64,000 nucleotides of DNA. Origin: a virus. Within the stretch, counting starts at the first letter, position 1. Each line of letters starts with the position of its first letter. Positions 25,388 through 53,644 of this stretch are shown here, in pieces. The translations under genes were made by a program, and so were the position numbers. Location of the stretch: IMG/VR virus record IMGVR_UViG_3300048999_000192, positions 62,001 to 126,000 of that record; one strand, 5' to 3'. Under the pieces are notes generated by a model, which saw nothing but the letters and a program-made list of their open reading frames with translations, was not told where the DNA came from and searched no databases.

Positions 25388-27337
25388 ATGGGCGCAGAAG
25401 CGGTCAGGCGGCTACGCACCGCCGAGGGCCCAGAGCCCGGCGACGAGCCGACCGCTGAACCCATGCGCGCACAGCGCCGTGGACGCTCTAAGCCCTCCCG
25501 GGAGGACCTGAGGGTCCGGAACCGCACGCGACGCTCGTACGAGACGCCTCAGGCCCGTACGGCCGCCCTCCGCTGCCTCGCCTGCGGCTGCACCGGTCCC
25601 GCCGCCGACCGCTGTGCCGCCTGCGGCTCACTGGCCGTCCAGGCCAACTGGGAGACCGCCCTCGGCCACGGCACCGAGCGCCAGACCGACTGGGACGATG
25701 TCACCCAGGGCTGGAACATGGATCACGCCCGTATCCACCGGGCGATCACACTGCACCCCAGCTCCGACGTCTACGACAAGATCGAGGACCCCGACGTCCC
25801 GGACGAGGAGAAGGCCCAGCACCTGCTGAGCCACCTGCAGAACGGCGGGCGCTCCCTCGGTCGGCACTGGTCGACGGACCTGGACCACGCCAAGCGCGTC
25901 GCGCGGGACGAGGGCTGGTCGGCGATCGGCAACAACTCCTCCGACGACGAGGAGAACGAGTACAAGCTCCCGCTGTCGGTCATGGTGCACGCCAAGTTCC
26001 CCGAGCGGCACCACATCGAGACCGACCCCAGCGTGCTGGAGGAGCACCACGTCACCCCGTGGGGCGGCTCGGAGCACTTCAGCGACGAGTCCGAGGTCCC
26101 GCTGAAGCCGGACGCCAAGGTGCACGTGACGGGGCTGTCCTGGTCGACCAAGACCAACCCGCACCCCAGCGAGTGGACGACCCACCGTTACGACAAGGAC
26201 ACCGAGGCGCACGAGCAGGCGCAGGAGTCCGCGCGCCAGGAGCGCATGGACAACCTGAAGAAGAGCTTCAAGCACGAGGGCAAGCTGGCCAGCGGTGCGT
26301 TCCACGCCCAGCTCCCTCCAGATGCGCACGCGCGGGTGGTGGATGAGAGCCGCCCTGCCGGTGAGAGGGCCAAAGAGCTGCTCGACCACCTGGGCCAGGG
26401 CCACGGCAGCATCCACTGGAGCGAGGGCGCGACCAGCATGCCGCTGGGTCAGGCCAAGATGAGCGCCAACGCGCTGCACCGCAAGACGGGATCGCCAGCG
26501 ATCAGCGGGGAGCTGCGGGGGGTGACCCCCGAGGGCACGACCAAGTACGACGCGGAGCACGGCCTGTCGGGGATCAACCTGCCCATCCACGCGATGCGGT
26601 GGCAGGAGAGCGCACCCGAGCACCCGTACAAGTCGACCGAGCACGAGCACGAGTTTGGGAAGCCGATGACCCATCAGGCTCTGGTACTCGACTGTGAGGC
26701 CTGCGGCCACATGAGCCGTACGGCCTCCTCACGCTGCCGCGCCTGCGGGTCGCTCGCGCTCAAGACGGCCACCGTGCTGATGACCCAGATCGAGCGGGCC
26801 AACCCCGGCGACCAGATGCGCACCCCGCAGGGGCAGTCGGTGCACGTCAAGAAGATCCGCCCGCACGAGACCGACAACACCAAGGTCTACGTGGACACCG
26901 ACCTGGGCACCGCCGTGATGAGCCGTGGCACCGAGGTCAACCTCACCCAGGGGGAGCGCCAGCAGGAGCTCCCTAACTCGGGCAACCCCAGCGGCAACGC
27001 GGGCATGCTGCCCGGCGCCGGGCGCACACCGACGGGAGAGGGTGACGCCGGAGGCGGCGGCTACGCGGCACCACGCTGCCCGCGCGATGGCACCAAGATG
27101 GTCCAGCGCGGGAACACCTGGATCTGCCCCATCGACAACACCACCGCACCACTGTCCTCGGCTCCCGCCGGGATGCAGCCGACCAACCGCGAGACGGGCC
27201 AGATCCTGACCCGCTCGCCAGGACGCAAGCCCCCGCAGACACACCTGTGGGCCACCTATCACACAGCCGGACAGCCTCCGGCGATCGTCCGGCGGGCACG
27301 GCAGGTGCTCGACACCATGGAGGAGATTCGATCGTGA
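25388..27337 (+). CDS. multidomain zinc-ribbon/ART-like protein, 649 aa
   Basis: ATG behind GGGAGGGA. Layout: zinc ribbon 1 (RCLACG...RCAACGSLA, about 61-85), module A (about 110-290, with GRHWSTDLDHAK, HHIETDPSVLEE and KVHVTGLSW), module B (about 310-420, PPDAHARVVDESRP, GSIHWSEG), zinc ribbon 2 (CEACG...RCRACGSLA, about 436-457), a small barrel, and zinc ribbon 3 (CPRDG...CPIDN). Modules A and B share wording with the last ADP-ribosyltransferase-like module of the 1551-aa protein at 33654. RTA/KTA motifs flank the ribbons and may be protease sites. Expected in the virion or prohead from its late position; function unproven. Confidence 0.65.
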   Translation: MGAEAVRRLRTAEGPEPGDEPTAEPMRAQRRGRSKPSREDLRVRNRTRRSYETPQARTAALRCLACGCTGPAADRCAACGSLAVQANWETALGHGTERQTDWDDVTQGWNMDHARIHRAITLHPSSDVYDKIEDPDVPDEEKAQHLLSHLQNGGRSLGRHWSTDLDHAKRVARDEGWSAIGNNSSDDEENEYKLPLSVMVHAKFPERHHIETDPSVLEEHHVTPWGGSEHFSDESEVPLKPDAKVHVTGLSWSTKTNPHPSEWTTHRYDKDTEAHEQAQESARQERMDNLKKSFKHEGKLASGAFHAQLPPDAHARVVDESRPAGERAKELLDHLGQGHGSIHWSEGATSMPLGQAKMSANALHRKTGSPAISGELRGVTPEGTTKYDAEHGLSGINLPIHAMRWQESAPEHPYKSTEHEHEFGKPMTHQALVLDCEACGHMSRTASSRCRACGSLALKTATVLMTQIERANPGDQMRTPQGQSVHVKKIRPHETDNTKVYVDTDLGTAVMSRGTEVNLTQGERQQELPNSGNPSGNAGMLPGAGRTPTGEGDAGGGGYAAPRCPRDGTKMVQRGNTWICPIDNTTAPLSSAPAGMQPTNRETGQILTRSPGRKPPQTHLWATYHTAGQPPAIVRRARQVLDTMEEIRS

Positions 27338-33653: not shown

Positions 33654-36600
33654 GTGCGTCCTGGGGAAGAGTCGGCTCGGTCCGACGCTGGCAAGCAGAC
33701 CGTCTGGCCGGTCGCTGTCGGCGGCGGCCTGGTGGACATGTGCGCCCACCACAAGACGATCCACGAGGGGCACTCCAACCTCGCCAACCAGATCGCCGCC
33801 CAGACCGGCCTGGCGCAGGAGGAGCACGAGGAGCTCACCCCGCACACCGGCACCTGCGTGGAGTGCAAGCGCCGCGCGGGCAAGGGCGAGCTGATGCACT
33901 CGCTCGACTCGGCGCTGCCGACCGGATATCGCAAGAAGCAGGATCAGAGCGACCGTACGCCCCGCAGGCCGTTCGAGCCGGGCAAGACCCGCACCAAGCC
34001 CCTGGAGCCCCTCCCGCCGTCTCTGAACGCCGTGCAGGCCTCCTCCGAGGAGATGCGCCCGCTGCCGGGAGCGCTCTACCACGTCACCACGGCCCGGGAC
34101 GCGGTGCTGGCCCACGGCCTGAAGAACCGCACCGAGCTCGGCCAGCAGTACGGCCACGGCCTCGGTGGCGGCCGGGACGACACGATCTCCCTGACGACCC
34201 ACCGGCCGACGGCCGAGCACCTGCTGCACTCCCTGCACGAGTACCACGACGTGCTCAACGGCAAGATCAAGCTGGCCGACCTGAAGGAGAAGGCCCGGCA
34301 GGGAGTCGGGGCCGAGAAGCCCTATGACTACATGCTGAAGGACCACGCTGACGAGGATCTCGCCGCCGCCGACAAGGGCCGGGCGATCGAGCACCGGATG
34401 CACGACCGCTCCGAGGTGGGCGAGGACTGGAAGCCCCTGGACGAGGGCATGCATGGCACCGGCCCCCAGGGGGAGTACCACCTCCACATGGCCTGGGACC
34501 GGCCGCTGGACCGCTCGGAGCTGCTCCACAAGCGTGATGACGTCTACAAGAAGTTCTCCTGGGGGCGTCAGGGCGCGGGTGGTCACCCCGACCCCCTGTT
34601 CATCGCCAACGACCCCGGCGAGTTCGTCAAGAAGGACCCGGGCCAGTTCGCCCTGATGCACGTGCGCCCTCACGAGGGAGCGCACGGGATCCAGATGAAC
34701 GACCGCACCGAGGGCACCGACGCGGGGGAGTGGCGGGCGCTGTCGGGCAAGGATCTCCACGTCGTGCACCACGAGGGCCGAGAGGCCATCACGCCCCGTA
34801 CGGCCGCCGCTGACCACCACGTCTTCTATCACGTCACGGACAATCCGAACTTCGAGCTGAGCACCACCCACCGGCCGCACCTGAACCTGGAGGGCGGTGA
34901 GGACGAGCACCGCGAGCCAGGCATCCACATGGCTGACCACGAGGGCATCAACCGCTGGATGGGCACCGGCGGGTACATCAGGCCGTACATGGTGGAGCTG
35001 CACGCCCACCCCGAGCTCGACGACCACCCCGACACCGAGCACGGCTTCGCCCGCGAGCGTTACGTCCCGGCCAAGCACTACGACAAGCTGAAGGTCCACC
35101 GCGTGATCCCGCTCGACGCCTGGGACCGCGAGCAGGGCGGTTATGGCCACATGGAGCAGTCGCTGGGCTCGGAGTACGACACCGGCGCGCCCATCGCCAG
35201 CTCACACGAGGACCGGCCCTACCGGCCCCGGACGCCCTACACCGGCCCGGACGCCCGCGAGATGACACCGGAGCAGCACCAGCACCACACCGACCGCTAC
35301 GACCGGTTCATGAGCGACCGCATCAGCCGTCAGGCCGCCTCGTATCCGATCAAGTACACCCGAATGACCCAGAACGGGTACGAGGACGTCGAGGACGAGA
35401 TCGAGGGCCCGCTGTTCCACGGCAGCCGCTCCAAGCGCCTGCAGCCGGGCGACATGATCACCAAGGGCCGCAAGACCAATCCCTGGGGCGACCAGGGCCC
35501 CAAGAGCCAGACGGTCCACTTCACCGTGCACCACGACACCGCGCGGGACTACGCCGACCAGGCGGGCGGCCACGTCTATGAGGTCGAGCCGACGGGGGAG
35601 TTCAAGCACGACTACTCCGGCGGCGACTTCAAGACCGCGCACCCGCTGCGCGTCGTGCGCATGGTGCCGCGTTCGGAGTGGGAGGCCTCCAAGGAGGCCA
35701 GCCGCCGTACGGCCATGACTCCGGAGCGCCGCGCCGAGATCGAGCGCATCCGGCAGGAGCGCAAGAACCGTCCCCGCCGCCCGGCCGGTCAGCCGCGCGC
35801 CGACGCGTTCTCGCACCTGTTCACGCCGATCCCCGAGCACGAGCTGGAGGAGCAGCGCCAGGCGCGTATGCCCAAGCCCGAGCCGATCAACGACAAGACC
35901 TACTCGATCGGCGACGTCAGCAAGCACTACGAGTGGGAGGGCTTCGACCCGTACGAGATCGAGCACCTCGTGCATCACCCGGAGCACGCCCAGTTCACCC
36001 ACGAGGACGTGCCGGTGCACAGCCTGCGCCACATCACCGAGCACGGCGAGCTCGTCAAGCCGCCGTCCTACCGCGACATCGCCGACCAGGGGGATGACGA
36101 GCAGGAGCGGCTCGGGGAGCTGGAGCGCGGGCACGACGACGGCGCCCACATCCCGCCCATCGTCGTCGTCCGCCACGGCGAGCACCACATCATCGCCGAC
36201 GGCTCCCACCGGGCGGCCATCGCGGCCGAGCGCGGCCACACCCACATCCCGGCCTTCGTCACCGAGCGGACGATCATGCCCAAGACCGGTCGCATGGGCG
36301 ATGGCGGCCCCGACCCATTCGAGCGTACGGCCGCGATGCACAACCCCAACGCCAAGGCGGGGCAGGCCGAGGACGAGTGGTACCACGGCAGCCCGCACGA
36401 CTTCGACAGCTTCAGTGACACCGGGTCAAGTAACGACACCGAGGACCACGTCAACCACTGGAACGTGCTCCTGGGCAACCACTTCACTGCGACCCACAAC
36501 GTGGCGCATGACTTCAGCCTGGGCCTGCACCACGCCTCGGACGCGAACGGCAACGACGACGCCGAGGAGCCGCTGGGCCACGTCATCCACGCCAGGCTGC

Positions 36601-38309
36601 ACATCAAGCGGCCCAAGGTCTACAAGTCCGAGCACGACATGGACCAGGAGGTCCACGAGCACGAGGTGAAGCGCGGCAACCTGCTCGACCCGCACCTGCC
36701 CGAGACGCCGCACGAGGACGCCGACGATGACGAGTGGGACGACTACTACGCCGACGCCGGGCACGCGCGGGTCTACCGGGGTGACAGCCATGGGCCCTTC
36801 GGCCCGAACGAGCCGGACCCGAACGTGGCTCACGGCTTCCACCCCAAGGCGACCGGCTGGCTGAACCACCACCCGGACAAGGAGGGCATCGCCGCCCGCC
36901 ACAAGGCCCGGCTGATCAAGCAGGGCTACGACGGCATCGTCTACGGCAATGAGTTCGAGCGGGCCGACGCCGGGGGCAAGGAGAAGTCCGCCATCGCCTT
37001 CCATCCGCATCAGGTCGAGATCACCCAGCACCACTACGGCCGCACCGGCCAGTGCCTGAACCCCGAGGAGTGCGCCCGGCAGCGCGCGGCCGACCACGAC
37101 CCGGGCCAGCTCGCGCTACCCATGGAGCACACTTCGGCCCTGACGGCGGGCGGCGTCAGCCGTCTCGCACTGCCGCTTCCGGCGGAGTGCTGGAGCCGGT
37201 ACCGCTCGACTCTGGGCGACCGTACGGCCTCCTGGGACGACGATGACGAGTGGAGCGAGGACGAGACCTTCCACTGCCCGGCGTGCGGCGAGGACCATGA
37301 GGACGAAGAGACGCGCGACAACCACATGATGGCCCATACCGACTGGGACAGGGTGCATCCCAAGCTTCCCGACACCCTGCACCGGGGCATGGCCGTCTCG
37401 CTGCCGGACGAAGTCCATGACGTCGTCCACGATGAGTCGCGGCCGTCGGCCGAGCGGGCGCAAGCGCTGGCCGACCACGTCAAGAAGCGTGGGCTGGGCA
37501 TGCACTTCACGGACGACAAGCAGCAGGCCGCGCACTACTCGCACGTCTACCACCAGCCTGGCGACACCCACGTGATCGTGCACTCGCGCAAGCCGGACAT
37601 GCATCACATCGAGACCGACCCCGGTGAGCTCGAATCCCAGCAGGTCATCGGTTATGGCCAGCACGATGACAACGAGATCCCGATTCGCTCCGGCGCGCCC
37701 GTGCACGCCACCGGGATCTCCTGGAAGCACGAGGATCCCAAGGCCGACTGGCATACGCACAACTTCGGAAGGTCCATGGAAATGACCGCGATGCGCAAGC
37801 AGGCCCACGACAGCGGTGACGGTCAGCGGATCTTCCACTGCCCGTTCTGCGGTGCTGGCCAGGTGATCGCCCGTTCGGACGGCACCACCGAGTGCGAGTT
37901 CTGCCACCAGGCCTTCACGGTCCAGGTGCAGCCGCAGTTCAACAGCTTCCCGCAGACCGACCCGACCACCGGCCTGCCGATCATGATCCCGGGCATGCCG
38001 GGCCAGATCGATGCCCCTGGCACGCCGCCAGGGGCTCCAGGAGGCGCTCTGCCGCCCGGAGCGGACGAGGAGTCGGACAACCCGTTCGCGGCCGACAGCG
38101 GTGACGAGAGCGGCCCTCCCGGGGCCGATGACGGTGGGGACGACTCCGGCGATGGCGGGGACGATAACAAGCCGGACTTCCTGAAGGGCTCCAGCTTCCG
38201 GACGGCCTCGGGCGACCTGCTCACCGAGGCGGCCTACACCCGCCACCTCGCGCTGCGCTTCTCGGCCAACCCTGAGAAGATGATCGAACTGCTGCGGAGC
38301 GGGCGATGA
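33654..38309 (+). CDS. giant polyvalent protein: ADP-ribosyltransferase-like modules, ParB-like domain, zinc fingers
   Basis: 1551 aa. In order: ART-like module 1 (YHVTTARD, about 139-230); module 2 (FYHVTDNPNFELSTTHRP, about 387-505); an Arr (rifampin ADP-ribosyltransferase)-like module (LFHGSRSKRLQPGD, VHFT, YEVEPTGEFKHD, HPLRVV, 585-680); a ParB-like segment (about 785-875, HIIADGSHRAAIAAERG); an ART-PolyVal-like module (WYHGSPHDFDSF, GNHFTATH, GYDGIVYGNEFE, 909-1130); a classical C2H2 finger (C1208, C1211, H1224, H1228); another ART-like module (LHRGMAVSLPDEV, MHFTDDKQQAAHYS, about 1241-1376); a CPFC/CEFC ribbon (1396-1416); a Pro/Gly linker and a C-terminal helix. RTA or QAA motifs mark most junctions. 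ART enzymes move ADP-ribose from NAD to targets. Packaging and injection with phage DNA, like T4 Alt, is inferred from its place beside the portal gene. Confidence 0.75.
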   Translation: MRPGEESARSDAGKQTVWPVAVGGGLVDMCAHHKTIHEGHSNLANQIAAQTGLAQEEHEELTPHTGTCVECKRRAGKGELMHSLDSALPTGYRKKQDQSDRTPRRPFEPGKTRTKPLEPLPPSLNAVQASSEEMRPLPGALYHVTTARDAVLAHGLKNRTELGQQYGHGLGGGRDDTISLTTHRPTAEHLLHSLHEYHDVLNGKIKLADLKEKARQGVGAEKPYDYMLKDHADEDLAAADKGRAIEHRMHDRSEVGEDWKPLDEGMHGTGPQGEYHLHMAWDRPLDRSELLHKRDDVYKKFSWGRQGAGGHPDPLFIANDPGEFVKKDPGQFALMHVRPHEGAHGIQMNDRTEGTDAGEWRALSGKDLHVVHHEGREAITPRTAAADHHVFYHVTDNPNFELSTTHRPHLNLEGGEDEHREPGIHMADHEGINRWMGTGGYIRPYMVELHAHPELDDHPDTEHGFARERYVPAKHYDKLKVHRVIPLDAWDREQGGYGHMEQSLGSEYDTGAPIASSHEDRPYRPRTPYTGPDAREMTPEQHQHHTDRYDRFMSDRISRQAASYPIKYTRMTQNGYEDVEDEIEGPLFHGSRSKRLQPGDMITKGRKTNPWGDQGPKSQTVHFTVHHDTARDYADQAGGHVYEVEPTGEFKHDYSGGDFKTAHPLRVVRMVPRSEWEASKEASRRTAMTPERRAEIERIRQERKNRPRRPAGQPRADAFSHLFTPIPEHELEEQRQARMPKPEPINDKTYSIGDVSKHYEWEGFDPYEIEHLVHHPEHAQFTHEDVPVHSLRHITEHGELVKPPSYRDIADQGDDEQERLGELERGHDDGAHIPPIVVVRHGEHHIIADGSHRAAIAAERGHTHIPAFVTERTIMPKTGRMGDGGPDPFERTAAMHNPNAKAGQAEDEWYHGSPHDFDSFSDTGSSNDTEDHVNHWNVLLGNHFTATHNVAHDFSLGLHHASDANGNDDAEEPLGHVIHARLHIKRPKVYKSEHDMDQEVHEHEVKRGNLLDPHLPETPHEDADDDEWDDYYADAGHARVYRGDSHGPFGPNEPDPNVAHGFHPKATGWLNHHPDKEGIAARHKARLIKQGYDGIVYGNEFERADAGGKEKSAIAFHPHQVEITQHHYGRTGQCLNPEECARQRAADHDPGQLALPMEHTSALTAGGVSRLALPLPAECWSRYRSTLGDRTASWDDDDEWSEDETFHCPACGEDHEDEETRDNHMMAHTDWDRVHPKLPDTLHRGMAVSLPDEVHDVVHDESRPSAERAQALADHVKKRGLGMHFTDDKQQAAHYSHVYHQPGDTHVIVHSRKPDMHHIETDPGELESQQVIGYGQHDDNEIPIRSGAPVHATGISWKHEDPKADWHTHNFGRSMEMTAMRKQAHDSGDGQRIFHCPFCGAGQVIARSDGTTECEFCHQAFTVQVQPQFNSFPQTDPTTGLPIMIPGMPGQIDAPGTPPGAPGGALPPGADEESDNPFAADSGDESGPPGADDGGDDSGDGGDDNKPDFLKGSSFRTASGDLLTEAAYTRHLALRFSANPEKMIELLRSGR

Positions 38310-38476
38310 AGGTCTGGGTCCTGGTCGACTTCACCGGCCCCTCCGGCCAGCGGTACACCAAAGGCAGCCAGCTCACCCTCCCCAATGACACGCCCGAGCA
38401 GCAGGCCTACGTCTCGTCACTGATCCGCTACGGCATCGTGACGACGGCCAAGCCCGCGACAGGAGCCACCACGTGA
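38306..38476 (+). CDS. hypothetical small protein before the portal, 56 aa
   Basis: ATGA overlap on the left and overlap with the portal GTG on the right. MKVWVLVDFTGPSGQRYTKG then a short helix and a TTAKPATGATT tail; a small beta unit. Resembles the protein at 52644 in its K-G-x-Q/A-G-D layout only loosely. Possibly a minor head protein. Confidence 0.6.
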   Translation: MKVWVLVDFTGPSGQRYTKGSQLTLPNDTPEQQAYVSSLIRYGIVTTAKPATGATT

Positions 38477-40671
38477 CCGACGACTTCGCGAACCGCATCG
38501 CCGGTGTCCAGAGCGCCATGAAGGCCAAGTCCCCGTTCTCTCGTAAGCGGGCGCAGGACACCGGCACCGGCGAGGCGGCCGAGATGCGCCGCAACCGCGC
38601 CGTGAACAAGAAGGTCGCCGCCGCAGGGTCCGGCAGCGACATCTCCTTCGCTACCGGCCGCCCGAGAGATCCCCTTTTCTACTGGAAGCAAAATAACCTT
38701 CCATATGACTTCGGTAAGCATGAGGAGCTGCGGAAGGTAAGAGCATTCTGTCGCCTTCTGTACCAGACTGACTCAATTATCGGTTCGGCGATCGACATCT
38801 ACTCCAAGTGGCCGCTGATCGGCATGGAGCTGTCGTGCAAGGACCAGAAGCTGACCGACTTCTACACCAACCTTTTCGGATTCGGTGAGGACGCCGACGA
38901 CAGCTCGCTCGACTACGAGGCCTTCCTGCCCCGCGTCGGCCGGGAGTACTGGACCGTCGGTGAGGCGTGGCCATTCGCCACGTTCAACCCGATGCTCGGT
39001 GTCTGGGAGGACGAGGAGCTCCTGCAGCCGGACGACGTCGATGTCCAGCGCAGCCCGTTCCTGAAGGACCCGAGGTTCTTCATCCGGCTGCCCGAGACCA
39101 TCCGCCGCCTGATGCAGACCCGCCAGCCAGCCTGGGAATACAACAAGCTGATGCAGGCGTATCCCGAGCTGGTCAACTACACCCACGAGAACCAGCTCAT
39201 GCCGGTCTCCAACATCCTGCTGCAGCAGATCAAGTTCGAAGGCGACACGTTCAACCCGCGCGGTGTCCCGCTGCTGACCCGCGCCATGCGCCCGGTGATG
39301 CAGCAGGAGATGCTCAACGCGGCCATGGACGCCATCGCCGACCGGATGTACACCCCGCTCATCCTGGTCAAGCTCGGCGCGTCCGCCTCTGACCTGGGCA
39401 CCAACGCCCCGTGGATCCCGACCGGTGATGACCTCGCCGATTTCGAGGAGGCGCTGGACGCGGCGCTGGCCGCCGACTTCCGCGCGCTGATCTACAACTT
39501 CGCGATCGACATCGAGTCCGTGTTCGGCCGGGAGCAGATGCCCGACCTGACGCCGGACTTCGAACGACTCGAAGACAAGATCCTCCAGACGTTCGGCCTG
39601 TCCCGGACACTCCTGACCGGTGCCTCGGCCGGTGAGACCTACGCCGCCGACGCGCTGAACCGCGACCTGATCACCCAGCTCCTGACGCACTACCAGAAGC
39701 TGATCAAGCATCACTGGCGGCAGCGGGCGCTGGTCGTCGCCGAGGCCCAGGAACATTTCGACTATGACGTCCGCAATGGGAAGCGCTACGTCAAGATGGA
39801 AGAAATCCTCGAAGTCGACGAGGAGACCGGCGACGAGCGCATCATCGAGCAGCCCAAGCTGCTGATCCCCGACCTGCACATGCAGACGATGAACCTGCGG
39901 GACGAGGAGCAGGAGCGCCAGTTCATGGAGGCGCTGCGTCAGGGCGGCGTGCCGATCTCCATGAAGACCAGGGTCCGTAACCTCCCGATCGACCTGGACG
40001 AGGAGATCGAGCGCAGCCAGGAGGAGGCCGTCCAGCTCATCGTCTCCGAGGCCGAGACCCGCAAGCGTGCCTACCAGGCGCTGCGCAACAACGGCCTGCC
40101 GATCCCGGACGACCTGCGCACCGAGTTCGAGGCCCTCGCCCAGCAGGCGCAGCAGCCCAGCCCGGCACTGTCGGCTGGCCAGCCGCAGATGATCCCCCAG
40201 CTCGGCCAGGACCCGCAGGCCGCCGACACGCCCAACCTCGCCCCGACGCAGCAGGACTTCCAGAACGACCCGCAGGACGAGTCCTCGGTGATGGCCCCGG
40301 TCATCCCGATGCCGATGGCTCCCCCGGGCGGAGAGGAAGAGGGCGACGCCCGGCCGGAGGAGTCCGACGAGGAGCGCGACGGCATGCCCACCTCGGCCGT
40401 GCTCTACCGGAAGGCCCAGAGCATGCGCACGGTGGCGGCCACCCGGCACGCCGACGTGGTCGAGGCCGAGCAGAAGCTGGCCCGCGAGCAGGCCTGGGCC
40501 GAGTGGGAGGTCAATCGCGTCGAGGCCGCCGCCAACGGCACCGACATGCCCGCGACGCCGCCAGAGGACCTGACCGCCTACACGGTGCCCGCCCAGATGC
40601 GCGGCCCGATGCACATCGGCCAGCGGCGCAACCTCGATCGGGACTGGAAGGCCGCGCTCGACGACGACTGA
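38473..40671 (+). CDS. portal protein
   Basis: 732 aa from GTG behind AGGAG. Residues 70-440 have portal character: RVFCRLLYQTD-like start (here RAFCRLLYQTDSIIGSAIDI), a long beta/alpha wing, stem helices with MNAAMD-like wording (EMLNAAMDAIADRMYTPLI), then FGLSRTLLTGASAGETYAAD and HHWRQRALVVAEAQE. The C-terminal 250 residues are Gln/Pro/Glu-rich and end in a helix. Twelve copies would form the ring at one capsid vertex through which DNA passes and the tail joins. A stretch near 38655-38785 uses A/T-ending codons unlike its surroundings. Confidence 0.85.
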   Translation: MTDDFANRIAGVQSAMKAKSPFSRKRAQDTGTGEAAEMRRNRAVNKKVAAAGSGSDISFATGRPRDPLFYWKQNNLPYDFGKHEELRKVRAFCRLLYQTDSIIGSAIDIYSKWPLIGMELSCKDQKLTDFYTNLFGFGEDADDSSLDYEAFLPRVGREYWTVGEAWPFATFNPMLGVWEDEELLQPDDVDVQRSPFLKDPRFFIRLPETIRRLMQTRQPAWEYNKLMQAYPELVNYTHENQLMPVSNILLQQIKFEGDTFNPRGVPLLTRAMRPVMQQEMLNAAMDAIADRMYTPLILVKLGASASDLGTNAPWIPTGDDLADFEEALDAALAADFRALIYNFAIDIESVFGREQMPDLTPDFERLEDKILQTFGLSRTLLTGASAGETYAADALNRDLITQLLTHYQKLIKHHWRQRALVVAEAQEHFDYDVRNGKRYVKMEEILEVDEETGDERIIEQPKLLIPDLHMQTMNLRDEEQERQFMEALRQGGVPISMKTRVRNLPIDLDEEIERSQEEAVQLIVSEAETRKRAYQALRNNGLPIPDDLRTEFEALAQQAQQPSPALSAGQPQMIPQLGQDPQAADTPNLAPTQQDFQNDPQDESSVMAPVIPMPMAPPGGEEEGDARPEESDEERDGMPTSAVLYRKAQSMRTVAATRHADVVEAEQKLAREQAWAEWEVNRVEAAANGTDMPATPPEDLTAYTVPAQMRGPMHIGQRRNLDRDWKAALDDD

Positions 40672-40719: not shown

Positions 40720-43700
40720 ATGCGGATGCAGCGTACGGCCCGGCAGCACACCACGCTCCAGGCGACGGCAGGGGTCAACAGCGAGGACTACTTTGACTTC
40801 CGGCCCAAGCAGCGGGTGATGACGGCCGACGGGTACCCGGGCCGCGTCGAAGCCGTGCACGATGGCCCGCACGCCGGGAGCGAGGCGTACGAGGTCGTCC
40901 TGGACGGCGGCATGGGCGGTGGGCTGTACGCCTCCAGCCAGCTCCACGCGCTCGCTGACGACGCTCACACGGCCGCCGGGGACTACCCCGAGCTGGAGGA
41001 CGTCCTCTCCGCCCGGCCCGACCCGGCCAAGCAGGTCGTGATGGCCAAGAAGGCCGCGCGCAAGAGGGCGTCGACCCTCCCCGACGATCACCCCGACAAG
41101 GTCTACCTCCGCTTCGGCCACTGGCCGAAGAACGAGCGTTCCGCGAATGGCGTCACGGGCCACCCAGAGGACGGGGTGAGCGTCTACGACCTTGACCACA
41201 AGGGCGAGCCCATGGACCCGGACCCCAACCTCAGCCGGGGCCACGAGCATGACGAGTCTTGCGATCCGGACTGCGATCTCGATAGCTGGAACGAGGACTA
41301 CGGCAACGACACCCGCGAGGAGATGAACGGCCGGGTCTATCGCGCGGAGAAGGCGCGGGCCAACGGTCACGACTACCGGGGCGAGGTCGGCCACCTGGTC
41401 AAGGGCAAGATGACGGGCATCGGCCACGATGGTGAGCCGCTGCTGAACAACGTCAAGCGCGTCGGTGACTGGATCGACCACCGGCACATGTTCATCCCGA
41501 CGGCGAGCCCGCACCGGCTGGCCAGGGGTGAATACGACGAGGACTACGAGCCGCCGTCGTCCAAGCTGGCCACCACCCAGAACGGCACCCGGATCGACGG
41601 CCACGGTGAGGCCCCGCACGAGGTGCGCGCCAAGGACCCCAACGGCTACGACGCCAAGAGCACCGAGGGCGACCCGGACCCGCTCATGTCCAAGCCGCTG
41701 ACCAAGAAGGACGAGGTCGGCGCGCACGGGGGCGAGCTCGGCAAGGGGATGTCCGGCGTCTCCTTCGAGGGCGCGATGTCCCCCATGCAGAAGCAGAAGA
41801 TCGAGGACCGCGAGGACGCCCGGCAGGACGTGGTCGATCAGCATTCGCAGGTGAACGACGCCCGGCGCGACCGCACCGACGTCGGCGACGTCCAGCGGGT
41901 CGAGGACCCGGCGTACGCCAAGTACCTGCAGTCCCTGAACGCGCTCACCGTACGGGCCGACTGGGACGACCCGGAGCACGGCGCGGAGTGGCGGCGTCCC
42001 TGGGACGTGATGCCCGTCCACCACGACGACGGCCGCTGGCACGACCCCGAGCTGGACAAGAACTACGAGCACGACACGGCCGAGCCTGAGGCCGACGACT
42101 CCTCCACGGCCCACGCCGCGCACCTGCACCTGCCGAACCCGGAGGAGGACCCGGACGCGCTGGCCAGCCACATGGTCGACGCACACGGCTACGACCTGGA
42201 CAAGGTCAAGCAGATGATGATGGTCCACCGGCTGATGAGCGGCCAGCACGAGATGGACCACGAGACCGAGCCGGGTGGCATGGGCCTGCACCCCGACGAC
42301 TTCTCCCTCCCGCACGACCACCCGGACCGCTGGCTGGAGCACGGGTCGATCCCGGGGCCGGAGGGCGGCGTCGAGCAGGCCGGAGCCCGTGGCGACACCG
42401 GCCACGCGCTCGACAGCAGCAGGCCGTTCGAGCTCAAGCCCTGGCATATGAACTACTCGCTGAGCTCGCTGGCCGACCCGTACGCCCTGGTCGCCTCGGC
42501 CGCCCAGGACCGGGACCTGGGATTCCAGCTCACCGCCGCCTGGACCGACGTTCGCAACAAGGCCAAGCGGATCCGGTCAGAGGGCAAGGTCAGGATCACC
42601 CTGGCCAGTGACGGCCTGGTGGCTGGTGAGGTGCAGGGGGACCACCAGACGTATGAGACCGGCATCCAGCGCCTGCCCGGCTCCCGCCACGGCGTGGCCA
42701 CCTGGAGCTGCGGCTGTAAGTGGGGCGCCTACCACTGGGGCGCCAGCGACGACTTCAGCCGCTTCGCCGGTCGGATGTGCTCTCACGCCCTGGCCCTGCA
42801 GTACGAGGCCCAGAGTCGGGGGATGTTCGGCAAGACCGTCGAGGTCGACACCTCCAAGCCGGACTGGGTGCCGCCGCGCGTGGTGGTCAAGTACAACCCC
42901 GACACCGGCCACAGCGACTTCGCCAAGTCCTCCTCACTGGTCACCCCCGAGCTGTCCCCGCTGCAGATCTTCTGCGCGTACGCGGGCAACGACGGGGAGA
43001 CCGCCGACCAGATCACCTGCCTGCTGCACACGGCCGGGCTGGTCGAGGGGTACTCCAACAGCCCGTGGGGCGAGCCGATCGCCGAGGTGCCGCCCAAGCC
43101 GTACGGGGCGACCCAGCCCGCCAACAAGTGGGAGGACCCGGGCAGCGCCGGGTTCCTCGCCACGCCCGACCCCGAGGACTGGGGCGGTCTGGGGCAGAAC
43201 AACCAGATGTACTCCACGTCCAGCCTGGACGAGGCGGTGTTCGAGCCCGTCCTGGCCAGTCCCCAGGGGGCGTATGAAGATCAGGACAGTCCTGCCGATC
43301 CGGAGGGCCTGGAAGCGACCCTGCACGACACTCCCGAGCCAGCTCTTCCCGAGACCGACGGCGGCCGGGAGGACATGGTCGGCGAGCACGCCGAGGACCT
43401 CACGCCGGACGACCAGTCGATGATGACGGTCGGCAACCAGATGGGCGGGGCCGACGAGGTCCTGGACGAGACCCAGAACACCACCCCGCAGGACCTGGAC
43501 GACGTCGTGGCGCGCTTCCAGGCCTCCGCCGGGGCCAAGGCCATCATGGCCGACGCCGGGACTCCCAGCGGGCCTGCAGCGCGCGAGGGGGCCTCCGCCG
43601 CGCCCTCGGACGGCGACATCGCCGCCCACGCGCGCCAGGTGCTGGCCCTGAAGGCCTTCAGCCCGGCCGAGCAGGCCTCCCTGATCAACGAGGGCGTCGG

Positions 43701-43788
43701 GGAGCGCGCGGCCAACTTCGACAAGCTCGACATCGCCGGGACGCACTACGCCGACCTGGACGACGAGGACGACACATGGCTGAGCTGA
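40720..43788 (+). CDS. 1022-aa head-region protein with SWIM zinc finger
   Basis: N-terminal barrel-like segment (VMTADGYPGRVEAVHDGP, about 35-75), a long acidic His/Asp-rich middle, and a folded part after residue 590. That part contains W-C664-x-C666-x20-C687-S-H689, a textbook SWIM finger (CxCxnCxH) embedded in VATWSCGCKWG...RMCSHALALQYEA. The last 250 residues are acidic and disordered. SWIM fingers bind nucleic acid or proteins. Position between portal and lysis-like genes and the RTAR/TAAG junction-like motifs suggest a virion or packaged protein. Confidence 0.7.
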   Translation: MRMQRTARQHTTLQATAGVNSEDYFDFRPKQRVMTADGYPGRVEAVHDGPHAGSEAYEVVLDGGMGGGLYASSQLHALADDAHTAAGDYPELEDVLSARPDPAKQVVMAKKAARKRASTLPDDHPDKVYLRFGHWPKNERSANGVTGHPEDGVSVYDLDHKGEPMDPDPNLSRGHEHDESCDPDCDLDSWNEDYGNDTREEMNGRVYRAEKARANGHDYRGEVGHLVKGKMTGIGHDGEPLLNNVKRVGDWIDHRHMFIPTASPHRLARGEYDEDYEPPSSKLATTQNGTRIDGHGEAPHEVRAKDPNGYDAKSTEGDPDPLMSKPLTKKDEVGAHGGELGKGMSGVSFEGAMSPMQKQKIEDREDARQDVVDQHSQVNDARRDRTDVGDVQRVEDPAYAKYLQSLNALTVRADWDDPEHGAEWRRPWDVMPVHHDDGRWHDPELDKNYEHDTAEPEADDSSTAHAAHLHLPNPEEDPDALASHMVDAHGYDLDKVKQMMMVHRLMSGQHEMDHETEPGGMGLHPDDFSLPHDHPDRWLEHGSIPGPEGGVEQAGARGDTGHALDSSRPFELKPWHMNYSLSSLADPYALVASAAQDRDLGFQLTAAWTDVRNKAKRIRSEGKVRITLASDGLVAGEVQGDHQTYETGIQRLPGSRHGVATWSCGCKWGAYHWGASDDFSRFAGRMCSHALALQYEAQSRGMFGKTVEVDTSKPDWVPPRVVVKYNPDTGHSDFAKSSSLVTPELSPLQIFCAYAGNDGETADQITCLLHTAGLVEGYSNSPWGEPIAEVPPKPYGATQPANKWEDPGSAGFLATPDPEDWGGLGQNNQMYSTSSLDEAVFEPVLASPQGAYEDQDSPADPEGLEATLHDTPEPALPETDGGREDMVGEHAEDLTPDDQSMMTVGNQMGGADEVLDETQNTTPQDLDDVVARFQASAGAKAIMADAGTPSGPAAREGASAAPSDGDIAAHARQVLALKAFSPAEQASLINEGVGERAANFDKLDIAGTHYADLDDEDDTWLS

Positions 43789-47935: not shown

Positions 47936-48018
47936 GTGCGTGACGTCCTGAGAGCCTTCAGGTAGCTTTGGGGGAGAGCACCGATCGACCCGCCCCCGGG
48001 TCCGGCTGTGCACCCCCA

Positions 48019-48052
48019 GAAGAGCCCCTGCCACCCCCGGCAGGGGCTCTTC
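48019..48052 (+). terminator. hairpin terminator before the protease gene
   Basis: Perfect 14-bp stem GAAGAGCCCCTGCC/GGCAGGGGCTCTTC with a 6-base loop; GCTGT of the late-type element begins at the next base. Confidence 0.75.
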
Positions 48053-48088
48053 GCTGTGCAGGCCCCTCTCACCCCGAGGAAGAGGTGA
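48053..48088 (+). promoter_or_regulatory. late-type leader element 4
   Basis: GCTGT at 48053 and GAAGAGGTGA at 48079 (26 bases). CCCCTCT (48063) pairs with AGAGGGG (48090), which is part of the ribosome-binding site of ATG 48103. Confidence 0.65.
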
Positions 48089-48102
48089 CAGAGGGGAAGG
48101 TC

Positions 48103-51100
48103 ATGCTGCGGAAGATCGCGACGCTGGAAACGCTGGAGGCGTACCGGGTCCCGGCGCACGCCGACGCACGCGCCCTGCGCAAGGCCGCCCACCGGGTGAG
48201 CTTCGAGTACACCCCCCGCCCGGGGTACCTCTACGTGCGTTCGCGGGCCATCAGCTCCCGGTGCAACGACAACTTCGACGAGTTCCCAGCCGAGGAGATC
48301 GCGAAGGCCTACGCGACCTTCAAGGGCAAGCCGGTGTTCGTCAACCACCACAACGACGACCACCGGCGGATGCGTGGCGTGATCATCGACGCCGCACTGC
48401 ATCAGGATCGCAACCCCGACGGCACCCCGGACACCTGGGCCGAGGTCCTGATGGAGGTCGACGCCAAGACCTTCCCCAAGCTCGCCAAGGCGATCCTGGC
48501 CGGTGAGGTCGACCGTACGAGCATGGGCTGCGACGTCCAGCTCTCGGTCTGCTCGGCGTGCGGCAACAAGGCCACCAACCCGGCGGAGTACTGCCAGCAC
48601 ATCCCGGCCATGAAGGGCCAGCGCATCTTCCGCGCCACCGCCTCCGGCCAGCGCGAGGGGCACCTGGTCCGGGAGATCTGCTACGGCCTGGGCTTCTTCG
48701 AGAACTCCCTGCTCGTCGAGGAGCCCGCCGACCCCACCGCCTACTTCCTCGGCGTGGACGACCGTGGCATGAGGGCGACGGCCACTCAGCACGGCGAAGA
48801 GCCGCCCGGATGGATCAACGACGTCAAGGACCAGGCGGATGAGCTGGCGAGCCGTAACGGCCACAGCATCTCCTGGAAGTACCGAGGCGAGCCCCAGTGG
48901 AAGAGCAGCTCGGGTTACGTCGCAGGCTGGCAGGGCGAATGCGCCAACGATGGGTGTGATGCTCCGGCCAGTCAGACCAGCCGGGCTCACACGGACAAGG
49001 TCCGCACCATCAGCATCCGCGAGGACCAGCCCGGCGAGCTGAAGGACATGATGCCGCCGTTCCTGCGGCGACGCTGCAAGGGGACCACGGTGGAGTCCAG
49101 CCGGAAGACGGCGGCCGAAGATCACTGGGCCATGCCGATCTTCCAGCACTTGAAGGACGCGCACGGCCTGGATGACGATCAGATCGCCGAGGGCATGCTC
49201 GCCGCCGGAGCCGAGCCGAACATGAACCAGGGCATCAAGCTCGACCATCTGTTCCACGCCCACAAGAACCTGCACGGCGGGGACTACCAGACACCGACCG
49301 GCGCGCAGCGGCACGGGCACACCCCCGAGGACCCGCTGATCTCCAGCGAGTTCAGGCCCTCACGCATGCAGATGAATCAGTCGGAGATCTACAACGACAA
49401 GCCCGCCTGGGGACCGAGGAGTCTCGGCCCGTACCGGATGCGGGCGGACGAATACGGCGATTTCAAGCCTCTTCGGCAGTCGCAGAACGCCAAGACGGCC
49501 GACGTCCGCCACAACCCGCAGTACGAGGGCACCCATTGCCTGATGTGCGGCGACCCGGTTCGCTGGAATTCCAACCCGGCCAAGCAGAGCCTGCCCAGCG
49601 GGGGCTGGTACCACCACGACAGCATCAAGCGCGATCACCACGCGCTCCCGGCTGACCCGGAGGCCGTGATGAACGACGTCCCTCGCCAGGACGCCCAGCG
49701 AGACCAGATCGACGCGCAGATCCGCGAGCAGTACGGCTTCGGCCCCAAGCGGCACAAGGACATGCCGCTGGACCCCTTCGTATCCGCCTACGCGCCCGAG
49801 CTGGACGAACTCGGCCCGGTCGAGGCCGCCGCCGGTCCGAAGTACCCCGACCCGGCCGATCACCCGTTCTTCAAGAAGAACCCGATCAACCATCAGCACA
49901 TCGTCGACACCTACAACGAATCCGACGAGGGCACGCGGGCGCAGGGCAAGCGCTGGTACCCCGACGCGCACATCCTGGCCAAGGCGATCGACCCCGAGGG
50001 CAACGCGGCGCGCGGCGCTGGCGTGCTGTCGGCCTACTCCCCACAGACCTCCTGGCCGGTCAACGCCATGAACGCCGCCCGGTCCCTGCAGCGTGGCAAG
50101 GCCATGCAAAAGGGCGAGGGCCAGATCATGGCCAGTCACGCCAAGAGCGCCCAGCGCATCATCGAAGGCGAGCACCACAGCGACGTCTTCAAGGGCCCCA
50201 AGATCCGGGCGTTCGCCCACCTGATCGAGCACGGCGGTGATGACCACTCCGTCGTGGTCGACCGGCACGCGCTCTCGGTGGCCATGGGCAAGCGCGTCAG
50301 CAAGGACGACCTCGCCGACGCGCCGCTGAGCACCCCGCACTACTACGGCCACGTCGAGCGGGCCTACCAGGACGCGGCCAAGCAACTGTCCGGCCAGCAC
50401 GGTGAGACGATCCACCCGCACGAGGTGCAGGCGACCACCTGGCTGCAGCAGCAGAAGCGCAACGCGGTCGACAACGAGACCGCCCGGGGCGGCCAGGGCA
50501 AGGGCCTGATCACCCGGGACAAGAACGACTGGCGCGACTGGGAGAACTACCACCAGAAGAACCACCCGGACCTGCCCAAGAGCCTGCACACCACCAACCC
50601 GCACGCCCCCAAGACCGAGGCGATGCGCAAGGGTGCGCCGTTCGCGGGCTATGAGGACTTCGCGGCGTGTGTCGCGGCCAACCAGGACAAGGACGACCCC
50701 GAGGCCTACTGCGGCTCGATCAAGCACAAGGTCGAGGGTGCCCAGCACACCGCCGCGCACAGGGTCTACGTCGACCAGGCCGAGGGCAGTCACGGCCGGA
50801 TGGTCACCTTCAGCGGCGAGGACAAGGGCGGCTACCTCAGCCGGGGCGACGGCACGTGGATGGCCGAGAACGACAACGGCTCGGTGGTGCACGAGCACCG
50901 CGACCACAAGCGGGCCCTGCGCGGCCTGGCCGATCACTACGGCCTGACCGGCGATCTCGACGTCGAGTACACACACGAGGGCACCGGGAACAGGAAGAAC
51001 TTCACCGTCCCGGGCAAGACGGCCGCGCTGAACGACGTCGTGGCCCCGCCCGAGGTCGACACGCTGCGGGATGAGGAGTGCCCGGTCTGCGGTGAGGTCG

Positions 51101-52620
51101 AGGTCTACGACGGGGAGCGGTGCCCGGTCTGCGGGTTCGTCGCGCCGCCGGAGATGTTCCGCGACCCGGACCTGGAGATGGCCAAGTCGATCGACCTGCG
51201 TCAGGACCAGCAGGCGCAGGCCGGTGACCCGGCGCCAGGCCAGGCCAACCCGGACGTGCCCGGTGGCGGCCTGGTCGACCCGTCCCAGCTCGGCGATGAC
51301 CCGCTGGCCGACCAGCTCCAGCATCCGGACCAGCTCGGCCCGAATGGCGAGATGGGCGAGCCCGGTACGCCAGGCGACGGCACGCCGGACCTGTTCTGCC
51401 CCGCCTGCGGCGAGGGCTTCGACGCGGGCCAGCCGATGACCACCGATGGTGACCCCGCCACGCTGGACGCCAGCGGCCCGGCCGAGGGCACCCCGTGCCC
51501 GAACTGCGGGATGTCCACCCTGCTCTCCCCGAACGACATGGAGGGCATGGGCATCGGCCCCGACGGCGAGCAGGCCGTCGCTGAGGAGGCCGAGGAGATG
51601 GGCGACCGGCCGATGGATGCCGGAACCCCCGAAGAGGACCCGGAGGCTCCCCAGGAGGGTGAGGGGCCGCCAGAGCAGCAAGAGGAGGAGGGGCCGCCGA
51701 CCGAGGAGGACGACGATTCCGACGAGCCTGCTGTGGACGAGGACGACCAGCCCTCGAAGAAGCGAGACGACAAGAATGCAAAGGGAGCGTCCATGAGCAA
51801 GTCCGTCGAGGCGGCGCTGGCGGCGAACACGGCCGCTGTCGGTAGCCTCATGCGCGAGCTGCGCATCGTCCGAGCGCAGAACGACCTGATCGCCAAGGCA
51901 GCCGGTCTGGAGGGCGAGTTCTCCGAGATCCGCCGTCAGGCCGACATCAACAACCCGGCCAGCCCCGTGCCGGACCCGGGCGAGCAGGCCCCGTCCGAGA
52001 CCACGGAAGAGGCGGTCACCCCTGAGGCGGCCGACGACCCGCAGCGTCCCGGCATGACCCCGGGCTCTGTCGGCGGTGTCCCGGCCGAGCAGGTCGACAC
52101 CCCGCTGCGCCCTGGCGTCACCCTCCCGGCGGCACCGGCCACCAACCTGGTCGACGTCACCGCGCCGGTCGCGGGCACCAACACCGGCGAGCTCTCGCCG
52201 GAGCAGACCCGCATCGAGACCGACGTGCGCGTGGGCGACCCGATGGCGAACGCGAACAGCGACGAGTCCAAGATGTTCCCGTGGACCATCGGTGCTCAGA
52301 ACGCCAACCGGACCATGGCCTCCATGCGTCTGGCCGAGCTGCGCATCGCGGCCAACCTCGCCCCTGCGGGCGACCGGTTCGCGCTGGCGGCCTCGATCGA
52401 GACCGACGCCAACCTCCCGGACGCCGCCCTGGCGACCGAGATCCGCACCCTGGAGGCCGTCTCCCGTACGGCCGCCCGCCAGCCGCGCCCGACCAACCTG
52501 GTCCCGCGTGCGGCGGCCACCGAAGGCCGTACGGCCCCGAGCCTGGCTCCCCAGCCGGTCGGTGCCCCGGTCGGCGGCGGCGGGTACGACGACACGGCCG
52601 ACTCCGACCTGTTCTTCTGA
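48103..52620 (+). CDS. giant prohead protease-scaffold fusion protein
   Basis: 1505 aa from ATG 48103 (GAGGGGAAGG); the open frame upstream lacks a start signal. Residues 1-230 are a herpesvirus/T4-type prohead protease: GKPVFVNHHNDD (His82/83/87), RTSMGCDV (Ser140), and the Cys/His insert CSACGNK...YCQH. Then follow a helical segment, a zinc domain (CLMCG), a 215-residue helical domain (about 577-791, resembling the DUF7178 family), an ACVAANQDKDDPEAYCGSI motif, small barrels, two zinc ribbons and a long Glu/Pro/Gln-rich scaffold-like tail. Usual proteases of this class are 200-300 residues, so most of this protein is extra. KTAA/KTAD/HTAA motifs stand at the junctions. It should act inside the prohead. 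Confidence 0.75.
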   Translation: MLRKIATLETLEAYRVPAHADARALRKAAHRVSFEYTPRPGYLYVRSRAISSRCNDNFDEFPAEEIAKAYATFKGKPVFVNHHNDDHRRMRGVIIDAALHQDRNPDGTPDTWAEVLMEVDAKTFPKLAKAILAGEVDRTSMGCDVQLSVCSACGNKATNPAEYCQHIPAMKGQRIFRATASGQREGHLVREICYGLGFFENSLLVEEPADPTAYFLGVDDRGMRATATQHGEEPPGWINDVKDQADELASRNGHSISWKYRGEPQWKSSSGYVAGWQGECANDGCDAPASQTSRAHTDKVRTISIREDQPGELKDMMPPFLRRRCKGTTVESSRKTAAEDHWAMPIFQHLKDAHGLDDDQIAEGMLAAGAEPNMNQGIKLDHLFHAHKNLHGGDYQTPTGAQRHGHTPEDPLISSEFRPSRMQMNQSEIYNDKPAWGPRSLGPYRMRADEYGDFKPLRQSQNAKTADVRHNPQYEGTHCLMCGDPVRWNSNPAKQSLPSGGWYHHDSIKRDHHALPADPEAVMNDVPRQDAQRDQIDAQIREQYGFGPKRHKDMPLDPFVSAYAPELDELGPVEAAAGPKYPDPADHPFFKKNPINHQHIVDTYNESDEGTRAQGKRWYPDAHILAKAIDPEGNAARGAGVLSAYSPQTSWPVNAMNAARSLQRGKAMQKGEGQIMASHAKSAQRIIEGEHHSDVFKGPKIRAFAHLIEHGGDDHSVVVDRHALSVAMGKRVSKDDLADAPLSTPHYYGHVERAYQDAAKQLSGQHGETIHPHEVQATTWLQQQKRNAVDNETARGGQGKGLITRDKNDWRDWENYHQKNHPDLPKSLHTTNPHAPKTEAMRKGAPFAGYEDFAACVAANQDKDDPEAYCGSIKHKVEGAQHTAAHRVYVDQAEGSHGRMVTFSGEDKGGYLSRGDGTWMAENDNGSVVHEHRDHKRALRGLADHYGLTGDLDVEYTHEGTGNRKNFTVPGKTAALNDVVAPPEVDTLRDEECPVCGEVEVYDGERCPVCGFVAPPEMFRDPDLEMAKSIDLRQDQQAQAGDPAPGQANPDVPGGGLVDPSQLGDDPLADQLQHPDQLGPNGEMGEPGTPGDGTPDLFCPACGEGFDAGQPMTTDGDPATLDASGPAEGTPCPNCGMSTLLSPNDMEGMGIGPDGEQAVAEEAEEMGDRPMDAGTPEEDPEAPQEGEGPPEQQEEEGPPTEEDDDSDEPAVDEDDQPSKKRDDKNAKGASMSKSVEAALAANTAAVGSLMRELRIVRAQNDLIAKAAGLEGEFSEIRRQADINNPASPVPDPGEQAPSETTEEAVTPEAADDPQRPGMTPGSVGGVPAEQVDTPLRPGVTLPAAPATNLVDVTAPVAGTNTGELSPEQTRIETDVRVGDPMANANSDESKMFPWTIGAQNANRTMASMRLAELRIAANLAPAGDRFALAASIETDANLPDAALATEIRTLEAVSRTAARQPRPTNLVPRAAATEGRTAPSLAPQPVGAPVGGGGYDDTADSDLFF
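51793..52620 (+). CDS. possible nested scaffold protein, 275 aa
   Basis: In-frame ATG at 51793 with AAGGGAGCG 4 bases upstream, inside the protease gene. The product begins MSKSVEAALAANTAAVGSLM, a helix, then an acidic low-complexity centre and a helical end, ending in DSDLFF. This is like the nested scaffold of other phages made from the 3' end of the protease gene. Start use is not proven. Confidence 0.5.
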   Translation: MSKSVEAALAANTAAVGSLMRELRIVRAQNDLIAKAAGLEGEFSEIRRQADINNPASPVPDPGEQAPSETTEEAVTPEAADDPQRPGMTPGSVGGVPAEQVDTPLRPGVTLPAAPATNLVDVTAPVAGTNTGELSPEQTRIETDVRVGDPMANANSDESKMFPWTIGAQNANRTMASMRLAELRIAANLAPAGDRFALAASIETDANLPDAALATEIRTLEAVSRTAARQPRPTNLVPRAAATEGRTAPSLAPQPVGAPVGGGGYDDTADSDLFF

Positions 52621-53104: not shown

Positions 53105-53644
53105 ATGCTGCGGACTCGGCTGAATAACTCGTACATCAAGCGGACGATTCGACCGCTGTACGGGTTCACTCAGGCCACGCCCCAGAGCGTCTTCCTGGAC
53201 CCGTCGTGGGATCGCTCCACGCCGATCTACCCGGGCATGGCGCTGGTCAAGACGACCGGCGACCAGGTCACGCTGTGCGGTGCAGGTTCCGGTGCGGGTG
53301 GGGTTGGCACGGCTGCCAACAACATCCCGGTCGGCCTGTGCGGCCACTACATCGGTGGCGACGGCATTGACGAGCTGCTCGACGTCGGCATGAACATGCT
53401 GGCGAACTGGGTGCTCGCCCCCGACGCTCAGTTCGAGATCCTCGCCCCGGCGTTCGACACCACGGCCGACTGGGCCGGGGCGGACAACGGCGACGGCACC
53501 GAGGACCTGATCTACGTCGCCACGGCCGCCGGATTCATCGGGAAGCTCACGCTGACCGGTGTCCACTCGCCGACGACCGCGCCGGTGGCGCGCCTCGTCA
53601 AGGCGAACTCCGCGACCAAGATCACGATTGCGGGGGTCCGATGA
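53105..53644 (+). CDS. head decoration/capsid-stabilising protein
   Basis: 179 aa. ATG 53105 is preferred over ATG 53090 because GGAGGTG lies before it. Beta-rich, with PIYPGMALVKTTGDQVTLC...PVGLCGHYIGGDG and later PVARLVKANSATKITIAGVR. Encoded directly before the major capsid gene with an ATGA overlap, the usual place for decoration proteins. Confidence 0.65.
   Translation: MLRTRLNNSYIKRTIRPLYGFTQATPQSVFLDPSWDRSTPIYPGMALVKTTGDQVTLCGAGSGAGGVGTAANNIPVGLCGHYIGGDGIDELLDVGMNMLANWVLAPDAQFEILAPAFDTTADWAGADNGDGTEDLIYVATAAGFIGKLTLTGVHSPTTAPVARLVKANSATKITIAGVR

Follow-up and report, generated by a model that had tools for sequence, protein, structure and literature searches.

Polyvalent proteins combine several effector domains in one chain, and up to 12 ADP-ribosyltransferases (ARTs) have been reported in a single protein of this kind (PMC5512222). 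Iyer et al. (2017) proposed that peptidases embedded in a subset of polyvalent proteins release the individual domains (PMC5512222). An embedded peptidase is not required for membership of the class, and polyvalent proteins may work whole or as released parts. ARTs encoded near head genes have likewise been described in phages (PMC9503650). In head maturation of phage SPN3US, the prohead protease gp245 recognises the short motif A-X-E, with Ser preferred at P1', in the ejection proteins as well as in the portal and capsid, and cleaves there (PMC10052503).

The window analysed here, 64,000 nucleotides spanning positions 62,001 to 126,000 of IMG/VR record IMGVR_UViG_3300048999_000192, belongs to a record of 155,098 bases from a Bxz1-like myovirus, a soil bacterial virus. 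All features of the window given below lie on its plus strand. An open reading frame at 33654..38309 starts with GTG and encodes a protein of 1551 amino acids, P0001; upstream of the GTG lies the purine-rich stretch aaagggtggaggtgggg, and the codon-position GC of the reading frame (0.70/0.44/0.92) is the same as that of its coding neighbours. Directly 3' of it is the portal gene (38473..40671; PHROG portal, E 6e-149), followed by genes for the head protease and the capsid protein, and the 1551-residue reading frame beside a portal gene that the original prediction had reported is therefore real. Portal proteins of Bxz1-like mycobacteriophages (Ceeclamvirinae) and of Gordonia and Rhodococcus relatives match this portal at about 40% identity. 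The same head block encodes a 1022-residue protein (40720..43788) whose orthologue on plasmid pRLB1-9.1 bears a copy of the module called M5 below.

When the whole of P0001 was compared with viral contigs it gave no match, so the portal protein and single modules were used as queries instead. A DNA-level search of phages returned no match, sequence searches of the PDB found no relative (one match to a GFP-like protein is a chance one), and a scan with defence-system profiles produced weak matches only. No embedded peptidase family was detected in P0001 by Pfam, NCBIfam and PHROG scans. At least two distinct effector domains do stand in one chain (Arr, ART-PolyVal, M5 and ParB-like), and the gene sits among late head and portal genes. 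P0001 is best classed as a packaged polyvalent effector, an assignment that is partly supported and in which packaging and injection are presumed.

Two modules match curated families. The Arr-like module (residues 580-686; 35391..35711) matches Arr-ms (PF12120) over residues 587-660 with an E-value of 1.2e-5 and 25.8 bits, above the curated cut-off of 25, which bears out its earlier description as Arr-like. It aligns with Arr-2 at 31% identity, keeps H589 and D653 and has H623 where Tyr is usual. A role in rifamycin resistance was rejected, since the module scores 20 bits against the NCBIfam rifampin-Arr equivalog and the cut-off of 130 is far from reached; by this test it appears to be an Arr-like domain and no rifamycin-resistance enzyme. 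The module shares about 50% identity with gp344 of Streptomyces phage Frankenweenie (OQ921725.1:185604-185966), an Arr-like protein that stands alone and likewise has His at the Tyr position. Module M4 (residues 907-1159; 36372..37130), originally picked out as an ART by the segment WYHGSPHDF...GYDG, indeed matches ART-PolyVal (PF18760) over residues 910-998 (4.5e-8, 34.4 bits against a curated cut-off of 31.2). H911, H943 and D1093 are invariant in seven homologues. With strands placed from the sequence, the His of the strand-1 position and the Asp of the strand-5 position are present (H911 and D1093), whereas the strand-2 position, Tyr in the H-Y-D clade, is His in all seven (G-x-H-[FW]). 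M4 is best regarded as a variant-triad relative of ART-PolyVal (Tox-ART-HYD2 clade) and not as a canonical member. With His in the place of the usual catalytic Tyr, M4 and the Arr module are both of uncertain activity.

Module M5 (residues 1227-1375; 37332..37778) has no family match in profile scans. In an alignment of 16 homologues an Arg (R22; R1244 in P0001) is invariant, a G-x-x-[WF]-[ST] segment is shared, the S/T (T1286) is near-invariant and a Glu (E119; E1341) is found in all but one (15/16). The AlphaFold2 model of M5 (pLDDT 94.3, pTM 0.89) places the Arg on strand 1, the S/T ahead of a helix and the Glu where a later strand begins. Arg, Ser and Glu laid out along the fold in this way are a familiar signature among ARTs. 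The order in the model is that of the R-S-E ART clade (PMC5512222). A fold search of the PDB gave weak matches, with TreX at ranks 1 and 2 (prob 0.47, E 0.067; prob 0.33) and CARDS toxin at rank 4 (prob 0.13). Both of these are ADP-ribosyltransferase toxins. Matches to predicted viral structures were good, some of them to proteins of this phage group that are uncharacterised or named 'ParB-like', a profile comparison with M4 gave 55% over 37 columns only, and a scan of bacterial genome contigs found no relative of M5. The alignment and the confident model support M5 as a new ART-like family of the R-[S/T]-E type, which would bring in a further ART-like fold from phages, one that lacks a close relative among solved structures. 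The earlier reading of LHRG...MHFTDD as an ART thus finds support in the conserved residues and the model, even though no family match accompanies it. A 649-residue protein encoded at 25388..27337 holds one full and one partial M5 together with several [RKH]TA motifs. A zinc-binding element of the CxxC or C2H2 type often precedes M5 (window 25388-27337; loci L085 and L087), which suggests that zinc finger and M5 ART may form a cassette that moves as a unit.

Both zinc elements that had been predicted for P0001 are present in the sequence: a C2H2 finger of the form CX2CX12HX3H at residues 1208-1228 (37275..37337) and a CxxC...CxxC ribbon at residues 1396-1417. The ParB-like module (residues 710-877; 35781..36284), recognised originally by its DGSHRAA segment, has no Pfam match on its own. 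It is 69% identical to a module of another phage, resembles Pleione gp85, which is annotated as ParB-like (E 1.3e-5), and contains a GxHR-type segment, all of which confirms the ParB-like reading. The number of ARTs, by comparison, had been overstated. Of the five proposed, three are supported (Arr and M4 by Pfam, M5 by its family and model) and two are unproven. M1 (residues 129-379; 34038..34790), a candidate H-x-E ART read from YHVTTARD, has two homologues, one in a 2510-residue phage protein and one on plasmid pRLB1-9.1, in which His, Ser-Leu-Thr and Glu are conserved, but it has no Pfam match. M2 (residues 387-505; 34812..35168), read as an ART from FYHVTDNPNF, is an orphan for which neither homologue searches nor Pfam gave a match, so that it stays a candidate. 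An AlphaFold2 model of M1 and M2 made from two sequences reached a pLDDT of 31, and either module could be something other than an ART.

The C-terminal end of P0001 is of a different character. Its last 170 or so residues (about 1378-1551; 37785..38306) form a core domain made up of the CxxC ribbon, a Pro/Asp-rich linker and a conserved C-terminal tail, and are orthologous to a protein that relatives encode immediately before their portal. In several of these the core orthologue stands alone with 224-322 amino acids and in three it is fused to an N-terminal ART-PolyVal-type module. The core is thus a conserved portal-adjacent protein and the enzyme modules are reshuffled cargo, two points that the original prediction had missed, as it had the linker motif described below. 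In a relative of 161,740 bases, most of the P0001 modules recur in a different order, as M5, M1, M4, M5, a partial Arr and ParB, on a 2510-residue protein, the next protein, of 2805 residues, holds M5, four Arr, two 2'-5' RNA ligase and GNAT modules, and the core is encoded away from the 2510-residue cargo protein. The phage of the window also carries M5 elsewhere, in the 649-residue protein at 25388 and in a 1966-residue protein encoded outside the window.

Several of these large proteins hold further elements. Nucleotidyltransferase-like modules occur in the pair of 2510- and 2805-residue proteins (L085:2873-18792), and in the latter [KR][TEQ]AA stands at most 10 residues before each of the four Arr modules. 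The 1966-residue protein (L006:4705-10605), encoded after the terminase gene, has two M5 modules, a NUDIX domain, a YR/STS-type ART-like segment and a KptA/DUF7002-like segment. In proteins of 1534 and 1654 residues encoded upstream of the portal (L010:4024-8628 and L012:3712-8676), an ART-PolyVal-like module is surrounded by numerous His-rich repeats.

A short motif, [K/R]-T-A with close variants, recurs in the linkers of P0001 and marks candidate protease sites. RTAAAD lies between M1 and M2 (residues 382-387; 34797..34814), the variant RQAAS before the Arr module (559-563; 35328..35342), RRTAM between the Arr and ParB-like modules (684-688; 35703..35717), ERTAAM between the ParB-like module and M4 (890-895; 36321..36338), RTASW between M4 and the zinc finger-M5 cassette (1190-1194; 37221..37235) and RKQAHD at the junction of cargo and core (1381-1386; 37794..37811), where most core orthologues have [KR]-x-A-HDSGDG. 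RTASG (1516-1520; 38199..38213) precedes the C-terminal 35 or so residues and is conserved in position among core orthologues. Of the six occurrences of [RK][TQ]A[ASMH] between M1 and the core, five fall in linkers, which account for 13.8% of the length (binomial p = 2.7e-4, an optimistic value in that the linkers were drawn by the analyst and the motif variants picked after looking).

The tests on other phages are the stronger ones. When tripeptides seen at least 5 times in head-region proteins from eight phages are ordered by z-score, KTA comes first and RTA second. [KR]TA occurs there 113 times against 22.4 expected, about 5-fold, while five permutations of it occur at 0.67-1.43 times expectation. 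The excess is restricted to the head block, where observed and expected counts are 24/2.43 in Finch (26/25.25 in the rest of the proteome), 16/2.49 in Stormageddon (20/24.46), 19/4.02 in Pleione (27/27.09) and 20/5.26 in the window (5/7.21), the limits of the block having been set in these four after the motif positions were seen. Myrna and the whole of Skog were taken up later and gave 13 against 2.75 for Skog and, for Myrna, a modest 8 against 3.11 for the bare tripeptide and 7 against 0.84 for [RK]TA[ASG]. In twelve large proteins the motif lies at most 45 residues upstream of 13 of 27 ART-like module starts, compared with 10.7% of random positions. The site logo is (S/A)-x-R-[KR]-T-A-[G/A/S]; herpesvirus assemblin sites similarly have a small residue after Ala.

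Sites of related form are found in the capsid and portal proteins. The major capsid protein of the window (53641..54636) has the N-terminal segment RGKVA followed by KKSDDYVG, and in all relatives with a readable N-terminus [KR][VTIF]A directly precedes the conserved SD[DE]Y body, a set that includes the window phage (GKVA, then KKSDDY), Pleione, Finch, Stormageddon and Myrna. At this capsid site [KR][VIF]A is commoner than [KR]TA, and [KR]VA is enriched 1.6-fold only. The portal N-arms of most close relatives carry [KR][KR][TV][AG] near residue 45-50, before the conserved fold, and the window portal has NKKVAAAG at the position of the relatives' [KR][KR]TA. The head maturation protease (47968..52620; PHROG head maturation protease, 5e-22) is fused to further domains, with [KR]TA motifs after the protease domain, which takes up about the first 310 residues, and is the processing enzyme that we propose.

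Taken together, we think it rather likely that P0001 is a late polyvalent effector polyprotein that is packaged in the head and cut in trans by the prohead protease at the linker motif. The C-terminal core, encoded beside the portal gene, would bring the polyprotein into the prohead, and the N-terminal part would be exchangeable cargo consisting of an Arr-type ART, an ART-PolyVal ART, a zinc finger with an R-S-E ART, a ParB-like module and two candidate ARTs. As the head matures, the phage's own prohead protease would sever the linkers at [K/R]-T-A or its variants [K/R]-[Q/E/V]-A, with the bond that follows the Ala as the likeliest, though conjectural, point. The freed enzymes would then leave with the DNA and, as infection begins, modify proteins or nucleic acids of the host. 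Packaging, cleavage, injection, enzymatic activity and targets are thus steps that we infer. Cutting in trans is proposed because no embedded peptidase was detected in P0001, and the restriction of the linker motif to the head region suggests processing into separate units. A literature search for virion proteomics or cleavage mapping of this phage or its group found none. What counts against cleavage is the prevalence of [KR][VIF]A over [KR]TA at the capsid site together with the low enrichment of [KR]VA, the modest excess of the bare tripeptide in Myrna, and plasmid pRLB1-9.1, whose polyvalent proteins have few motifs and whose protease and 895-residue protein have none, and the scarcity of [KR]TA sites in those polyvalent proteins calls for caution.

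A repeated motif could also be a binding or targeting signal. The main rival to cleavage accordingly holds that the effector is packaged and injected uncut, with [KR]TA serving as a short docking or encapsidation motif that binds the scaffold, the portal or the lining of the capsid and gains avidity by repetition. Some packaged proteins, such as the virion RNA polymerase of N4, do stay full length (PMC5512222), and restriction to the head together with conservation towards the C-terminal end of the core, both seen for this motif, would suit a targeting signal too. We nevertheless regard an uncut effector as rather unlikely, given that the motif falls between modules, in linkers, that a small residue follows it and that the related sites are in places where prohead proteases trim, namely the very N-terminal end of the capsid protein and the portal arms, which are not part of the fold. 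It is more doubtful still that P0001 is a structural head protein and no effector, with ART folds that are inactive or used for binding: the cargo varies, duplicates and changes genes while the core is conserved, and the remaining catalytic-position residues are kept in M4 and M5, although the portal-adjacent core is structural-like and both M4 and the Arr module do have His instead of the catalytic Tyr.

The [KR]TA excess might also be a by-product of Ala-, Lys- and Thr-rich disordered linkers and have no recognition function. The sites do lie in low-complexity linkers, and the motif was first spotted by eye in P0001. Linker composition as the mere cause was rejected, since composition-matched permutations are not enriched and the rest of each tested proteome is at expectation; the excess appears again in Myrna and in the whole of Skog, both examined later, and the position of the site is conserved in the core and the portal. 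We consider a by-product very improbable.

Extending the cleavage model, we lean slightly towards the view that in all Bxz1-like actinomycete phages [K/R]-T-A-[A/G/S] is the prohead protease code, that giant head-region proteins are polyproteins cut in the prohead before injection, so that a single gene supplies several separate ARTs and other enzymes, and that cargo is gained by the fusion of a motif-flanked module. The head-restricted linker motif and the capsid and portal sites make the question of whole or released parts testable in phages of Mycobacterium smegmatis, Gordonia and Rhodococcus, which are easy to grow. If the cleavage model is true, it provides a sequence rule for where head-packaged effectors start and end, and hence for which unannotated segments are effectors.

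Among relatives, the Bxz1-like mycobacteriophages (Pleione gp85, gp91 and gp100; Ceeclamvirinae) have homologues of the portal protein (about 40%) and of the capsid protein (about 60%), large proteins upstream of the portal and the head-restricted motif, but their large proteins bear other cargo and sequence searches found no core domain in them. Closer is plasmid pRLB1-9.1 of Streptomyces sp. RLB1-9 (NZ_CP041653.1), with a portal 62% and a capsid 81% identical, a stand-alone core beside the portal and M1, M4 and M5 modules on other proteins; it differs in being annotated as a plasmid, in having its modules spread over several genes and in its fewer [KR]TA sites. This circular molecule of 154 kb has a plain-plasmid annotation and holds the group's genes for the portal, the protease, the capsid and the polyvalent proteins, and is likely a phage-plasmid or extrachromosomal prophage. 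The host genus of the window phage is likely Streptomyces, because pRLB1-9.1 carries close portal, capsid, core and M1/M4/M5 relatives.

P0001 resembles T4 Alt and other head-packaged ARTs (PMC9503650) in its predicted head packaging and early ADP-ribosylation and in the R-S-E layout of M5, whereas T4 Alt is a single ART protein and P0001 carries several unlike ARTs on one chain. The small residue after Ala in [KR]TA recalls the Ser preference of SPN3US gp245, the cuts of which mostly remove N-terminal propeptides (PMC10052503); in P0001 the motif, [KR]-T-A-[AGS], lies between modules and its cleavage is conjectured. With the published polyvalent proteins (PMC5512222) P0001 has in common several effector domains on a late chain encoded with portal and head genes, ART and ParB domains and multiple ARTs; it differs in that no peptidase was detected, that its linker motif suggests cutting in trans and that its cargo is attached to a conserved portal-adjacent core. 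A polyvalent multi-ART protein is thus of a known kind, and what is new here is that the chain is fused to a core encoded beside the portal and that its linkers bear a candidate cleavage code restricted to the head region.
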